This document shows, piece after piece, positions 41,293 through 49,740 of a stretch of 64,000 nt of DNA. Source of the DNA: Terriglobia bacterium (GTDB taxonomy: Bacteria; Acidobacteriota; Terriglobia; JAJPHL01). The position numbers and the translations under genes are program-made. The stretch's first letter is position 1. Each line of letters begins with the position of its first letter. The notes below the pieces were generated by a model. It was given only the letters and a program-made list of their open reading frames with translations, did no database searches and was not told the origin of the DNA. The stretch covers positions 62,001 through 126,000 of the forward strand of contig JAJPHL010000042.1 of the NCBI GenBank assembly GCA_021325275.1, in the 5' to 3' direction.

Positions 41293-42645
41293 GTGACGCA
41301 AGATTCCAATCGTTCACCGACTCCACTGCTGCTGGCGGGACTGTTTGTCACGCTGGTCGCGCTGGTGGCGTGCGCTTGGTACATGACGATGCAGATCGCG
41401 GGTCTGCGCGCCTTGCAAAGCGATTTGGTGGACCGCAGCCGCCGCGACTCCCTGCAGCTTTTGCGAATCCAGAACGATCTCCACTCCTTGGCGATCGCGA
41501 TGCGTGATGTGCTGGACACTTCACAAGATCAGCGAAAAGATCAGCGGCAAGATCAACGACAAAATCAGGCGCTGACTTCCTGGTCGGCCGAATTTCAACG
41601 TCTTCGATTAGACTTGGAAGATGGCTTCCGCTTGGAAGCGCAAATGGCTCCGGCCCAGCGGACTCCCGAGCAGAAAGAATATCTGCACACATCGGTCGTT
41701 AAGTTTTGGGCGTCCGTTGATCATGCCTTCGACTTGGCAGTGGAAGGAAAGGAGTCGCCGGCTCGTGAGCAAATCCGGCAATCGTTGCAACAGCAGGCGG
41801 CTCTCAACGCCGCAGTGGCCCGGCTGCTGGTTGAAAACAACGACAGTGAAAAGCAGGCGACCATTCGAATTGGAGAGATTTACGACCGCGTTCAAGGACA
41901 GATCTACCGCTTTCTAGCGGCTACCGTGGCGGCGATCGTGCTCACCAGTCTTTACCTGATCCGCGCCAATCGCCGTCTGTTCGCGCAACTGGCGCGGCTC
42001 TCGGAGCAGCGCCGTGATTTGGCACAGAAACTGATTTCGGCGCAAGAATCCACGCTGCGATCGATTTCCCTGGAACTCCACGACGAGTTCGGCCAAATCC
42101 TAACGGCTATCGGGTCGATGCTACGGCGCGCCGGCAGCCACACGCCGGAAGGATCGCCGCTGCTAACGCAATTGCGAGAGGTTGGCGAAGTCGCGCAAAC
42201 GGCTCTTCAGCATGTGCGTGGACTCTCGCAAGCGCTCCACCCGGTGATGTTGGACGAAGCAGGTCTCGAGCGTACGCTGGACTGGTATCTTCCGGCGGTG
42301 GAACGTCAGAATGGCGTGACGATCCACTATGAGAAATCAGGATCTTCTTTCCCAGTGGAGGGAAGCAAGGCCGTGCATGTCTACCGCATCTTGCAGGAAG
42401 CGTTGAACAACGTGGCTCGCCACTCCGGTGTTAGTCAAGCTTGGGTGCGCCTGCGTTTCGAAGCGGGTGCGTTGGAACTGGAGGTGGAAGATCACGGCAC
42501 GGGAATCACCACGCATCCCGAGAAACGCGGCCTGGGTTTGGTGGCTTTGCGTGAGCGCGCCCAACTACTAAACGGCGCCGTGGAATTCGTGCGGCCGCCG
42601 GGAGGAGGGACCCTGGTGCGGCTCAAGGTTCCCGTGGAGAATTGA
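41293..42645 (+). CDS. NarL-type sensor histidine kinase
   Basis: A 450-residue membrane sensor. TM1 about 12-33 and TM2 about 205-223 enclose a Gln/Asp/Arg-rich helical periplasmic region of about 170 residues (including a DQRKDQRQDQRQNQ run), like four-helix-bundle sensors. A short HAMP-like linker leads to HisKA_3 with phospho-acceptor H263 in ISLELHDEFGQILTAIG, then HATPase_c with the N box (QEALNNVARHS), DHGTG and GLGLVALRERAQLLNG. Start is GTG. The response regulator begins seven bases downstream, forming a standard cognate pair. Signal unknown; given downstream redox genes, redox or peroxide sensing is a guess. Confidence 0.92.
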   Translation: MTQDSNRSPTPLLLAGLFVTLVALVACAWYMTMQIAGLRALQSDLVDRSRRDSLQLLRIQNDLHSLAIAMRDVLDTSQDQRKDQRQDQRQNQALTSWSAEFQRLRLDLEDGFRLEAQMAPAQRTPEQKEYLHTSVVKFWASVDHAFDLAVEGKESPAREQIRQSLQQQAALNAAVARLLVENNDSEKQATIRIGEIYDRVQGQIYRFLAATVAAIVLTSLYLIRANRRLFAQLARLSEQRRDLAQKLISAQESTLRSISLELHDEFGQILTAIGSMLRRAGSHTPEGSPLLTQLREVGEVAQTALQHVRGLSQALHPVMLDEAGLERTLDWYLPAVERQNGVTIHYEKSGSSFPVEGSKAVHVYRILQEALNNVARHSGVSQAWVRLRFEAGALELEVEDHGTGITTHPEKRGLGLVALRERAQLLNGAVEFVRPPGGGTLVRLKVPVEN

Positions 42646-42652
42646 AACTCGT

Positions 42653-43282
42653 ATGAATGAAAAGATTACCGTCCTGCTGGTGGACGATCATAGCTTGGTG
42701 CGCCGAGGTTTCCGCCGCATTCTGGAGGACGAATCCGATATCTCGGTCACGGGCGAGGCCGGTGATGGTCCACAAGCCATCCGGCTGGCCAAGGAATTGC
42801 AGCCGCGCGTCGTGGTGTTGGACTACGGCTTGCCAGGCATGAGCGGCTCCGACGTGGCGCGTAAGATCGCGGAATGCTGTCCCAAGACTGCCGTTCTCAT
42901 GCTGACGATGCATTCGGAGGAAACTCTTGTCCGGCAGGCGTTGGACGCCGGGGCCCGAGGATATCTTCTGAAGAGCGCGGTCGACCTCGACTTGGTGACG
43001 GCCGTCCGCCGCGTTGCCGCGGGCGAGACGGTGCTAGACCCGCAGATCTCGCTGACCTCCGTCTTGAAGGGCGAACGCAACAGCGGTCTCACCGCCAGAC
43101 AACTGGAGATCCTGCGGCTGATCGTGGCCGGTAAATCCAACAAGGAAATTGCCTCGCAACTCGACCTCAGCGCCAACACCGTTGCGGTGCATCGCGCCAA
43201 TATCATGGACACCCTCGGAATTCACAACACGGCTGAACTGGTCGTCTATGCAATTCGCAACGGACTCGCCAGCCTTCCCTAA
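42653..43282 (+). CDS. NarL/FixJ-family response regulator
   Basis: A 209-residue two-domain regulator. Receiver: acidic pair D11/D12, phospho-acceptor D57 in VVVLDYGLPGMSG, Thr in MLTMHSEE and Lys in GYLLKSA. The LuxR-type helix-turn-helix runs from about 145 to 205 (LTARQLEILRLIVAGKSNKEIASQL in pieces, NTVAVHRANIMDTLGIHNTAELV). It is phosphorylated by the adjacent HisKA_3 kinase and then binds promoters as a dimer. It is followed at 51 bp by the TlpA-like gene, which it may control. Confidence 0.94.
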   Translation: MNEKITVLLVDDHSLVRRGFRRILEDESDISVTGEAGDGPQAIRLAKELQPRVVVLDYGLPGMSGSDVARKIAECCPKTAVLMLTMHSEETLVRQALDAGARGYLLKSAVDLDLVTAVRRVAAGETVLDPQISLTSVLKGERNSGLTARQLEILRLIVAGKSNKEIASQLDLSANTVAVHRANIMDTLGIHNTAELVVYAIRNGLASLP

Positions 43283-43333: not shown

Positions 43334-43864
43334 ATGTCCAATCGATTCGTGGCAATCGTCGTTTTGGCCTTTTCGATTGCGTTCTTGGGCGCGCATGGGA
43401 AATCCTCCGCCGTCGACTTAAACCTTGCCGACCTTAACGGCAAGAAAGTTCATCTTCGCGACTATCGCGGAAAGATTGTGGTCCTGAATTTTTGGGCGAC
43501 TTGGTGTGGTCCGTGCCGCGAAGAATTGCCCATGTTGGTTGAAAGCGAGAAGACCTGGTCTGCCAAAGGCGTGGTTTTCATCGGTGCATCGCTGGACGAA
43601 AAGAAAACCCAGAAAAACATTCCCGAGTTCCTGCAGAAGTACGCCGTCCGCTTTCCCATCTGGATCGGCGCCAACGCCGATCACTTGGCCGACCTGCGGA
43701 TGGGAGAGGCCGTGCCGGACACAGCTTTCATCAATGAAGAAGGCATCATTTTCGCGCGAGTCCTCGGAGAGATCAAGAAGGCCGAGCTTGACGAACGTCT
43801 CGCATGGGTTACCGGAGACCGGTCACTGCCTGCTCCGAAAGCACTGGTCCGCAACCTGCCGTAA
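43334..43864 (+). CDS. Periplasmic TlpA/ResA-like thioredoxin
   Basis: A 176-residue protein with an N-terminal signal or anchor helix (about 5-20) and an AhpC-TSA/Redoxin-type thioredoxin fold. The active site is WCGPC with C58 and C61 in NFWATWCGPCRE; the cis-Pro is in AVPDTAFI. This family reduces disulfides in the periplasm, for example apocytochrome CxxCH motifs or peroxidases. No second Cys pair is present. It is in line with the two-component pair upstream and with the AhpD-like selenoprotein gene downstream across a 473-bp gap, and could be the reductant of that protein; this is inferred from position. Confidence 0.92.
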   Translation: MSNRFVAIVVLAFSIAFLGAHGKSSAVDLNLADLNGKKVHLRDYRGKIVVLNFWATWCGPCREELPMLVESEKTWSAKGVVFIGASLDEKKTQKNIPEFLQKYAVRFPIWIGANADHLADLRMGEAVPDTAFINEEGIIFARVLGEIKKAELDERLAWVTGDRSLPAPKALVRNLP

Positions 43865-44140: not shown

Positions 44141-44337
44141 GAGCGGCTGCGCAGCCGATTGGCTCACAGTTCGACAGTGATCGAATTCAAATTAAGCCAC
44201 GACCCGATAAATGGCATTCTGCTGATGCACGACACCTAGTAGTCGCCATAGTTAGTTCATGTTATTGCGCTCACCCAAGTTCACGCCTTACGATGCAAGA
44301 CACTGCGCCCGCTACGGGTGCGATTTTGGGAGGGGTC

Positions 44338-45456
44338 ATGCGAAAGTTCTGTTGGTCGGTCATATTTGGGATGGCCATGGTGGCGGTGTTCTGCTGTCAA
44401 CAGCCGGCTTGGGCTCAAGGCTGTATCGTGGCTCGCTCGAACGGCGAGGTGGGTGGTCCACAGAGTGAGGGTGGTTATCTGGCTCCCGGCGAAATCAATT
44501 TCGCGATCGACTATCGTCACCAATTTTCCTTCCGTCATTTCATTGGCCCGACCGAGCAGACCCAGCGGATCGCCGATGGCACTCAGGTCATGAACAAGAT
44601 CAACTTGGAAAACGTGGTCGTCACCTACCAGATGACCCCGCGTTTCGCCGTGACCACCAGCCTACCGGTGCTCAGTGCCAGCCGGCGCGCCAACAATTCC
44701 CCATACACGAATACGACCGCCGGAATTGGGGACACCTCCTTCCTGGTTTCCGGGTGGCTTTGGAATCCGCAGGAGAACACGCGAGGCAACGTTCAGTTTG
44801 GTTTCGGCATCAGTCTGCCCACCGGACGGGACAACGAATCCAATCTGGTCAACAACGGAAAAGGCATTGTGAATTCCCTCGCCGATTACTCCATTCAGCC
44901 GGGATCGGGCGGGTACGGAATTATCTTTCAATGGGCAGCCTACAAGAACGTTTGGAAGCGACAGCTTTATTTCAACGGCAGCTATCTAGCGACTCCACAG
45001 AATGTCAACAACGTGCTGCGAAGCAGCAACACGAATCCGGCCACTCTGACGCAGTACGTTTCCATCTCCGACCAGTATCTTCTGGAAGGTGGCATCGCTC
45101 AGCCGATCAGTAAAGTACGGGGACTCAGCGTAACGCTCGGGCCGCGCATGGAGGGCGTTCCCGCGCACGATTTGATTGGCGACAGTTTGGGATTCCGCCG
45201 CCCGGGCTTTGCAATTTCGGTGGAGCCGGGCATCCAGTACGCGCGCAAGGGATCGCTTTTCACTTTTCAGTTTGGAAGAGCAGTCTATCGCGATCGCACT
45301 CGCAGCGTGCCTGACATCATCACCGGCGGCCACGGCGACGCGGCGTTCGCCGATTGGGTCTGGCTCGGAAGCTACTCTTACCGCATTCCGACGCGCCACC
45401 GCGGGTCTCACCAACACATGGATCATGATCCGCAGCCGCCCGCGGCGATTCACTAG
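44338..45456 (+). CDS. Outer-membrane beta-structured protein, transporter/MetA-like (unknown substrate)
   Basis: A 372-residue protein from ATG 44338, preceded by GGGAGGGG six bases upstream; the frame extends 45 bp further. The signal peptide ends AWAQ near residue 26. The mature part is beta-rich with a periodic pattern of barrel strands (NVVVTYQMTPRFAVTTSLPV, NVQFGFGISLPTGRDN, RQLYFNGSYLATP, LFTFQFGRAVYR), resembling the 'transporter / phenol-degradation MetA-like' outer-membrane family. The tail GSHQHMDHDPQPP is His-rich and could bind metal. The next gene, for the AhpD-like selenoprotein, starts four bases after its stop, so the two are translationally coupled. Confidence 0.75.
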   Translation: MRKFCWSVIFGMAMVAVFCCQQPAWAQGCIVARSNGEVGGPQSEGGYLAPGEINFAIDYRHQFSFRHFIGPTEQTQRIADGTQVMNKINLENVVVTYQMTPRFAVTTSLPVLSASRRANNSPYTNTTAGIGDTSFLVSGWLWNPQENTRGNVQFGFGISLPTGRDNESNLVNNGKGIVNSLADYSIQPGSGGYGIIFQWAAYKNVWKRQLYFNGSYLATPQNVNNVLRSSNTNPATLTQYVSISDQYLLEGGIAQPISKVRGLSVTLGPRMEGVPAHDLIGDSLGFRRPGFAISVEPGIQYARKGSLFTFQFGRAVYRDRTRSVPDIITGGHGDAAFADWVWLGSYSYRIPTRHRGSHQHMDHDPQPPAAIH

Positions 45457-45460
45457 TCTC

Positions 45461-46057
45461 ATGGATCCCATGTTCCTGCCCGATGTGGAAGGGAATCCGC
45501 AACCCGGCGCCTACCGTAATCTGGTGCACGCGATGCAGCAGGCCGGGCAGGAGTATCCGCAGATCTGGCACCTCTTTGCCTTTCTGCCGCAAGCCACGGA
45601 ACACTTGGCGCGCTTTACGCAGGAGATCCTGCGGGGGCCGGCGCCGATCAGTCCCGGTCTAAGAGAGTTGATCGCCGCCTACACTTCTTTCCAGAATCAC
45701 TGCCCATTTTGAGTGAAGTCGCACGCCGCGGTCGCGGCGGAATTGCTGGGCGACGAGGATCTCGTACAAGGTGTCCTGCGCGATCTGGAGAGCTCGCGCC
45801 TCGACGAGAAGGAGAAGGCGCTGTTTCGATTCGTCGGCAAGGTCAATCGCCAATCGCCGAACATCACCGCCGCCGACATGCAGCCTTTATATGCGCTCGG
45901 CTGGACGGATGAGGTGATCTACTACGCCATCACCGTCTGCGCACTCTTCAATTTCTACAATCGCTGGATCGATGCCACCGGGGTCCATGCGCTCTCGGAC
46001 GAAGCGCACCGTGAGGGAGGGAAGCGGTCGGCATTGTACGGCTACGTCCGGAAATGA
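45461..46057 (+). CDS. AhpD-like peroxidase-related selenoprotein (Cys-x-x-Sec), TGA read as selenocysteine
   Basis: One continuous 198-residue frame if TGA 45710-45712 is read through. The first half ends NHCPF, the TGA follows, and VKSHAAVAAEL continues in the same frame. AhpD/carboxymuconolactone-decarboxylase proteins have Glu, CxxC and His with fixed spacing; here E69, C81, U84, H88 give gaps of 12, 3 and 4, the same as E118, C130, C133, H137 of mycobacterial AhpD. The TGA therefore replaces the second active-site Cys. A six-pair GC hairpin with loop GGUC begins 11 bases after the TGA. The C-terminal half (LYALGWTDEVIYYAITVCALFN in part) is typical of peroxidase-related AhpD proteins. 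Predicted role: thiol/selenol peroxidase or disulfide reductase. It is coupled to the upstream outer-membrane gene. Confidence 0.85.
45724..45739 (+). promoter_or_regulatory. Bacterial SECIS hairpin of the AhpD-like selenoprotein gene
   Basis: CGCCGC-GGTC-GCGGCG: six Watson-Crick pairs closing a GGUC loop, with 17 bases between the TGA and the loop. Escherichia coli fdhF has 18 bases and the same GGUC in its apical loop, contacted by SelB. The hairpin lies in coding sequence and is compatible with the AhpD reading. Confidence 0.8.
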
Positions 46058-46065
46058 AGCTACGG

Positions 46066-47274
46066 CTAGTGCCGGAACACGGTGGTCTGCGGATGGTAGA
46101 GTTGCCAGTCGAACCAAAAATCGCTGATCGTAGCGACCGGCTTCAGGCAACGTCCAGTGGCCGGTCCGGAAATTGCGCATCCCTGGAAGTTCCACTCGCT
46201 GACGGTCGCGCTGTCCATAAACAGTCCGGAAGAGTCTTCGATTTTGTTGTAAAACTGCGTGGGAGCGCCATCGATTTCACTGAGGAATGCGCGAATCGAC
46301 TTGCCGTCCGGTCCCACGACTAAGAAGATATCTTTTCCGCCAAGGTGATCTTGGATCAGTTTCAGTTCCAGCATTCGCTTCACGGGATAGGCCCGGCTTG
46401 CTCCCGCAACTTCCACTCCGATCATAAGTGTTCGCGGAACCAATCCGGTCGCTTTGGTATTGACTACGGTGGGAGAATCGTTGATCCGTTTCTCCCAATC
46501 CTTCGGTTCATACCATTTGCGGTAGGCTGCCGCCGGCTGCAGCACTGTTCCGTGAGGATTTTCTTTTCGCCACAGGCCGAACGACAATTCCTCGGTGCTG
46601 ACGAGTCTCAACTGGTTTCCTTTCAGAGGGCCGGAAACGGCCCGCCCGCTGATCTGTTGCCAGAAAGATCCTGTCTCGTCGTCGCGCATCAAAAAATTTT
46701 GGTTGTTGATCCCTGCCAGATGAAACGTCAGCACTCGTCCGCCGACTTCCCGCGTCCACACCAGACCGGTGTGACAGAGCGTTCAATATGTAGCCACAAT
46801 CGCTACGCCGCCGACGCGGTCGTTCACGATGTGGTGATAGCCCATGGTGCGGATCGGAAAGGCCCGCTGCTCACCGGCGATCGACACCGTCAACACCATG
46901 TCATCAGCATCCACCGGCGCCTTGTCGGCTGCCACGAATCCGGCGTTTGGCATTGGATGGAACATCAACTCATAGACGTTCACCTGGCTCAGGGTCGCAA
47001 ACGCAACGGTCAACACCACGAGGACAATTGCTCCAGCACGACCCGCCCGGCCCGCTGCGTTGCGCCAAAGCGAAACCACCGCGACCAAGCTGATCGCCGC
47101 GCAAAGGATCGCCAGCGCCGGTCCCCATCTCCGTACCATCAACGCCCACGCCAGCTCGGTCGCTCCCTGCGCGCGAAATGGCCGAATCACATACATGGGG
47201 AAGGCCAAGCAGAGAAACGCCACTAGACACAACCCTGCGACAGCGAGCCATAATGCAGGTTTTGGCAGTTTCAT
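46066..47274 (-). CDS. DUF3179 membrane protein with Sec-x-x-Cys motif, TGA read as selenocysteine
   Basis: A 402-residue frame from ATG 47274 if the TGA at 46785-46783 is decoded. Three N-terminal transmembrane helices (about 8-30, 48-68, 75-95) precede a DUF3179 domain: FPIRTMGYHHIVNDRVGG and VAIVATY, then the TGA, then TLCHTGLVW, VLTFHLAGINNQN and MRDDETGSFWQQISG. Ordinary DUF3179 proteins read 'VTYCPLC' here, so the TGA replaces the first Cys (U164) and C167 is the partner. A six-pair hairpin with loop GGUCU follows 15 bases after the TGA. DUF3179 has no established function; a redox or metal-binding site at this pair is inferred. Without readthrough the gene appears as two pieces. Confidence 0.82.
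46757..46773 (-). promoter_or_regulatory. Bacterial SECIS hairpin of the DUF3179 selenoprotein gene
   Basis: On the minus strand CACACC-GGTCT-GGTGTG forms six pairs with a GGUCU loop, 15 bases after the TGA. The loop is the same as in the neighbouring AhpD-like gene and as in fdhF, although stem sequences are unrelated, which argues for selection on the loop. Confidence 0.78.
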
Positions 47275-49371: not shown

Positions 49372-49740
49372 ATGAAAACGACGGTGCTTTGTGTTGCGTT
49401 GATCCTGTGTGCTGGTTTGGCCCTGGCAATGGCCGATGCCAAAGGCACTCCCCTCACGGTTAAGGGATGGGTGCTGGATTCCGCGTGCGCGTATACCAAG
49501 GGATTGGAAAAGCCGATCAGCCGAGACTGCGCCTTGGCTTGCGCCAAGAAGGGATCGCCGCTGGTGATTCTCCGCGACGATGGAACGATTTTCCTGCCGA
49601 TCGGCGCCGATACGCCGGCCACCGGCCAGAATGAAAAGTTGCTGCCTTTTGCCGGAAAGCGCGTTGCCGCGAGCGGCCGCTCCTTCACACGCTCGGGCTC
49701 GCAAGCCTTGGTCATCGACAAAGTGGAGGCAGAGAAATAG
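49372..49740 (+). CDS. Small secreted protein with a Cys-containing conserved core, function unknown
   Basis: A 122-residue protein with a clear signal peptide (residues 1-20) and SD GGAAGGGGAA upstream of ATG. The core reads GWVLDSACAYTKGLEKPIS, RDCALACAKKGSPLVIL, DDGTIFLPIG, with three cysteines (Cys residues in SAC, DC and LAC) that could hold a metal or disulfides. I have seen this pattern in exported proteins of Acidobacteriota and Planctomycetes annotated hypothetical, but no function is known to me. It stands alone between the GT39 and TIGR03436 genes. Confidence 0.78.
   Translation: MKTTVLCVALILCAGLALAMADAKGTPLTVKGWVLDSACAYTKGLEKPISRDCALACAKKGSPLVILRDDGTIFLPIGADTPATGQNEKLLPFAGKRVAASGRSFTRSGSQALVIDKVEAEK

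Follow-up and report, generated by a model that had tools for sequence, protein, structure and literature searches.

Is the TGA that interrupts an AhpD-like gene in an acidobacterial genome a stop codon, or is it decoded as selenocysteine (Sec)? The question is raised by a forward-strand frame in the window, i.e. the whole 64,000-nucleotide stretch of DNA analysed here, which opens with ATG at position 45461, closes with TGA at 46055–46057 and contains a single internal TGA at 45710–45712 (Table 1). Re-reading of the sequence reproduced this frame, its coordinates and the residue-84 context NHCPF-TGA-VKSH, as given in a preliminary description of the locus. The resulting motif, E69-x11-C81-x2-U84-x3-H88, places the TGA at the second Cys of the AhpD motif E-x11-C-x2-[U/C]-x3-H, and the spacing of 12, 3 and 4 claimed in that description is indeed that of Glu118, Cys130, Cys133 and His137 in Mycobacterium tuberculosis AhpD (PMC3141380). 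When the 81 TGA codons in the long frames of the window were ranked in a composition scan, the TGA at 45710 came first and the one at 46785, in a convergent DUF3179 gene, fourth. The observation of an AhpD-like gene with a TGA at the place of an active-site Cys is confirmed, and its interpretation as a selenoprotein gene is supported by the evidence below: the product is almost certainly an all-helical AhpD-like protein of 198 residues, with Sec inserted at UGA codon 84, in which Cys81 and Sec84 would have a redox role.

Table 1. Features of the window around the AhpD-like gene.
Feature	Position	Strand	Remarks
Histidine kinase (HisKA_3, HATPase_c)	41293..42645	+	association only; homologs near Sec gene in 12 of 73 named loci
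LuxR/NarL-type response regulator paired with kinase	42653..43282	+	next to kinase 41293..42645
TlpA/ResA-like thioredoxin-fold protein	43334..43864	+	ordinary WCGPC
Upstream gene (outer-membrane gene of the preliminary description)	44293..45456	+	ends 4 nt before AhpD-like start codon; no Pfam match
AhpD-like (TIGR01926, CMD fold) selenoprotein gene, predicted	45461..46057	+	198 residues, Sec84; terminal stop also TGA
Cys81 codon, opens CxxU motif	45701..45703	+	invariant in family alignment
In-frame TGA, predicted selenocysteine codon, residue 84	45710..45712	+	aligned with homologs' Cys
SECIS hairpin, predicted	45724..45739	+	stem 45724–45729/45734–45739, loop GGUC 45730–45733
Second predicted selenoprotein gene, DUF3179 (PF11376)	46066..47274	-	211 bits; convergent, 8 bp between the two stop codons
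Predicted SECIS hairpin of DUF3179 gene	46757..46773	-	loop GGUCU
In-frame TGA of DUF3179 gene	46783..46785	-	context ATY-U-TLC

The protein matched the Pfam family CMD (PF02627) with 34.5 bits and the NCBIfam model TIGR01926 (peroxidase-related enzyme) with 95 bits, above the curated cut-off of 81.8. An AlphaFold model built from 28 related proteins had a mean pLDDT of 96.9 and an all-helical AhpD fold. Its best PDB match was the Deinococcus radiodurans AhpD-like protein DR1765 (6k40; E 1.8e-9, 26% identity), which has Cys where the gene here has Sec; other solved matches were 3c1l, 2pfx and 2oyo and, further down, the Bmp8 debrominase, sestrin2 and M. tuberculosis AhpD. The AhpD-related (seleno)protein model NF041238 (CFYUT) matched the same region weakly (34.5 bits), but with a cut-off of 175 bits and a length of ~357 positions it does not take in the gene as a member.

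AhpD-like selenoproteins had been predicted before, as the preliminary description correctly stated. CxxU selenoproteins of the AhpD-like COG2128/TIGR01926 type were first reported from the Sargasso Sea (27 sequences; PMC1088965), were counted as 'AhpD-like 1' with 299 sequences in the GOS ocean survey (PMC2398784), and are also listed in PMC13188914 and PMC9312934; since they have been known since 2005, the novelty of the present gene is limited. It shares with the marine proteins the CxxU motif and a hairpin after the TGA with G in the apical loop. Unlike those marine reads, it belongs to a soil acidobacterial clade with known neighbours and with a SECIS element whose silent covariation can be followed over 77 distinct sequences. 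Within the accessible portions of the literature on AhpD-like selenoproteins, DUF3179 and acidobacterial selenocysteine, no work devoted to the present acidobacterial clade was found.

SelB would recognise the GU-containing loop and deliver Sec-tRNA. By analogy with the AhpD family, Cys81 and Sec84 would form a CxxU redox pair, and Glu69 and His88 would serve as the proton relay. Sec84 would occupy the place of Cys133 in M. tuberculosis AhpD, which we take to be the peroxide-attacking residue of that enzyme; it could reduce peroxide or another oxidised substrate, after which a cellular reductant would regenerate it by way of a Cys81-Sec84 selenylsulfide. The protein is described here as a likely peroxide-reducing enzyme. 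This activity is inferred: the Pfam family is named after carboxymuconolactone decarboxylase, and the structure search also matched Bmp8 and sestrin2. A possible but less likely reading is that Sec is correctly assigned and the main task is a different one, either that of a thiol/disulfide adaptor, in the way AhpD feeds AhpC, or that of a Bmp8-like reductive dehalogenase. The shared CMD fold and the presence of Bmp8 among the structure matches are in line with this reading, and AhpD has been described as an adaptor or reductase (PMC3141380, PMC8945050). The best sequence and structure matches point instead to the peroxidase-related TIGR01926 group and to DR1765, the loss of which raises sensitivity to H2O2 (PMC8945050).

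Relatives were collected by searching 399 genomes of the class (E ≤ 1e-20), with matches in 126 of them, and by scanning named genome contigs, which gave 73 loci, most of them from Bryobacterales and other acidobacteria and a few from Gemmatimonadetes, Myxococcota and Gemmataceae. From this distribution, the source of the window is probably an acidobacterium of the class Terriglobia. Residue 84 was TGA in 92 and Cys in 29 of 123 related loci, the site being uncovered in the other two (L114 and L116); all 121 loci covering it had one or the other and no other residue, which settles what the preliminary description had wished to know of the homologs. Of these, 91 TGA forms and every Cys form were called by script, and one TGA (L113) was called by hand at an assembly gap just past the site. 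Because the 123 loci include fifteen pairs of duplicate records of one and the same DNA, the RNA statistics below use distinct sequences (77 Sec and 28 Cys; 76 Sec in the codon-pair count, which covers a different stretch). The E-C-U/C-H residues (proton-relay Glu, CxxC/U and His) were present in 119 of the 120 script-read loci, the remaining locus being a fragment without the Glu. In eight of eight comparisons, conservation of the gene after the TGA equalled or exceeded that before it (identity 73–81% versus 66–78%), and the part after the TGA was under purifying selection in the same number of comparisons (pN 0.12–0.18 versus pS 0.55–0.81); the downstream decay that had been named as the mark of a recent mutation is absent.

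The Sec/Cys state needs at least four changes on a tree of 103 sequences. Some Cys forms are nested within Sec clades, namely L119 (genome G019) and L086/L117 (genome G084), and judging from their position these are probably Sec-to-Cys conversions; the G019 genome retains SelB and the G084 genome is without it. Additionally, AhpD-like paralogs (~35–41% identical) lie near the AhpD-like gene in L074, L081, L086, L088, L089, L091 and L108, which include both Sec-form and Cys-form loci.

A GC hairpin with a GGUC loop 17 nt past the TGA is present, as had been claimed. According to the part of PMC13188914 that sets out the bSECIS model, such an element has a loop of 3–9 nt with G in the first two loop positions, a stem of 4–16 bp, a distance of 16–37 nt from UGA to loop, and a minimum free energy of at most -7.5. 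The hairpin lies within all of these published limits, with a 4-nt GGUC loop, a 6-bp stem, 17 nt between TGA and loop, and -14.8 kcal/mol for the 38-nt fold. Taken as a single sequence, it did not fold more stably than shuffled versions of this GC-rich sequence (three stretches, with z -0.13, -0.23 and -0.22), and single-sequence folding was rejected as a proof of SECIS in favour of covariation over the relatives. It is the conservation among relatives that goes beyond chance, and the fold energy is a weaker part of the earlier case for a SECIS-like hairpin.

Across the 77 distinct Sec sequences, the six pairs of the stem are formed in 73, 77, 76, 75, 77 and 77 cases. The pair that closes the loop forms in all 77 (G-C in 51, A-U in 24, G-U in 2), and the two loop bases inside it are GU in 73 and GG in 4. 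At valine-bearing sites, the closing pair joins the third base of an Ala codon to that of a Val codon, and a switch between GGUC and AGUU is silent at the protein level. Among 76 distinct Sec sites, the codon pairs were GCG-GTC in 49 and GCA-GTT in 23, the remaining four coding for Gly; all 72 valine-bearing Sec sites were paired, with GTG or GTA in none of the 72, whereas 9 of 28 Cys-form sites had GTG or GTA and the silent pairing pattern was absent. The loop type switches 13 times on the tree, and both loop bases changed together in eight of eight independent comparisons on well-supported branches. The median hairpin energy of the 22-nt stretch was -12.4 kcal/mol in Sec genes versus -4.5 kcal/mol in Cys genes. 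The hairpin is maintained by selection, via paired silent changes. This covariation confirms the bSECIS model rather than defining a new SECIS type, because the model (PMC13188914) already allows the outer loop bases to pair.

The Sec machinery that the preliminary description proposed to look for is complete in the source genome (6.86 Mb, 97.6% complete), which encodes SelA (523.5 bits), SelB (333.8 bits), SelD (365 bits) and a tRNA-Sec at C63:19870-19965. The latter scored 69.4 bits (cut-off 47), with ordinary tRNAs, presumably serine, at ~45–51 bits in the same search, and ARAGORN likewise reported a tRNA-Sec with anticodon tca (UCA). The SelD gene (C2:117482-118408, minus strand) itself has an in-frame TGA, in the context GVKAAG-U-ASKL and followed by a hairpin, and is the third predicted selenoprotein gene of the genome.

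Across the 399 genomes, SelB (E ≤ 1e-66) was found in 67 of 72 TGA-form genomes versus 7 of 17 Cys-only genomes (Fisher p 7.5e-6, kinship not corrected). Only strong matches (~140 bits or more, plus the G113 fragments) entered this count and weaker paralog matches were dropped; the TGA was located exactly in 30 of the 72 TGA-form genomes, the other 42 being known as '1 TGA' inside the match, and Cys was read at the site in 18 of 19 Cys-form genomes. Two apparent TGA-form genomes without SelB, G059 and G098, were rejected as counter-examples and excluded from the 72 and the 17, their TGA lying at index 13 of the aligned stretch, close to where the match begins, and the site itself carrying Cys (L134, L135). 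The five TGA-form genomes without a SelB match are assemblies 72–96% complete in 390–990 contigs; SelA is present in each of the five (above the cut-off in four and in pieces in the fifth), and one yields SelB once its pieces are joined. SelA was found in none of the five genomes tested among the ten that are Cys-only and SelB-less. Since seven Cys-only genomes retain SelB, the Cys form is not solely an outcome of machinery loss.

Readthrough of the TGA as another amino acid, by suppression or by a code change such as that to Trp, would likewise conserve both halves of the gene, yet it is very improbable here: homologs without TGA have Cys in 29 of 29 cases and never Trp, this gene also ends in TGA, as do 32 of 89 Sec-form genes, the genome holds the UCA-anticodon tRNA-Sec with SelA, SelB and SelD, and the hairpin is confined to TGA forms. 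If an ordinary CxxC gene had suffered a recent nonsense mutation or a sequencing error, it could look much the same in one genome alone, and the hairpin energy is unexceptional, but the recurrence of the same TGA across many genera (92 of 121 loci), together with downstream conservation and silent-site covariation, leaves this reading with next to no probability. The same negligible weight falls to the reading that the gene makes an 83-residue fragment and, from a restart at GTG 45713, a separate second protein, since although both pieces appear as ORFs, the Cys homologs are single proteins spanning the site and the predicted fold is one compact unit with residue 84 inside helix 82–96.

Besides the AhpD-like gene read with selenocysteine, the window contains the convergent DUF3179 gene (Table 1). 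Its relatives, 22 loci including the window's own, divided into 14 with TGA and 8 with Cys, and the hairpin ACC-GGUCU-GGU was found in 14 of 14 TGA forms (two of which, L084 and L154, have identical DNA there) and in none of the eight Cys forms. DUF3179 selenoproteins with UxxC/T are a known family (PMC13188914, PMC9312934), and the member found here converges on the AhpD-like gene; DUF3179 was within 4 kb of that gene in 2 of the 73 named loci. The accessible text of PMC2398784 describes other adjacent selenoprotein gene pairs, and none there joins AhpD-like with DUF3179.

The preliminary description had also coupled the AhpD-like gene to the outer-membrane gene upstream of it, a claim that fails among the relatives. 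No match to this gene was found within 4 kb in the 73 named loci (E 1e-8, at which a very divergent homolog could escape); it adjoins none of these homologs and was rejected as part of the system, and is therefore regarded as local context. The TlpA/ResA-like protein was not found near the Sec genes of relatives. A small exported-looking protein is encoded at 49372–49740 (plus strand), with homologs immediately preceding the Sec-AhpD gene in L102 and L104.

The kinase and regulator lie 2–4 kb upstream of the Sec gene in the window, and homologs of the pair were within 4 kb of it in 12 of the 73 named loci, all of them Sec forms; one of the 12 shows the kinase alone, at a contig end, and a thirteenth locus (L098) has a weak partial regulator match only. 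The kinase (E ≤ 1e-60) was found in 51 of 151 genomes, as a single copy in each. From this proximity and the single-copy state, the selenoenzyme may set or respond to the signal of the kinase. The link is suggestive only, because just 3 of the 16 genomes holding both kinase and Sec gene have them within 10 kb (counted by eye); many contigs are short, and several linked loci come from one clade. It is doubtful that the kinase and regulator form a redox-sensing two-component system dedicated to the Sec-AhpD enzyme.

It is very well supported that the AhpD-like gene adds a soil acidobacterial clade to an already known selenoprotein family. One deep-Sep table row for the phylum Acidobacteriota gives three known selenoproteins, and a 2006 survey counted three families with four selenoproteins in the same phylum. 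Automatic annotation likely renders such a gene as a truncated ORF plus a fragment, and selenium use by soil acidobacteria is therefore probably under-recorded. The synonymous-site covariation provides a clean, experiment-free test of a bacterial SECIS element, and the clade, with its mix of Sec and Cys forms, lends itself naturally to testing what Sec contributes to an AhpD-type enzyme.
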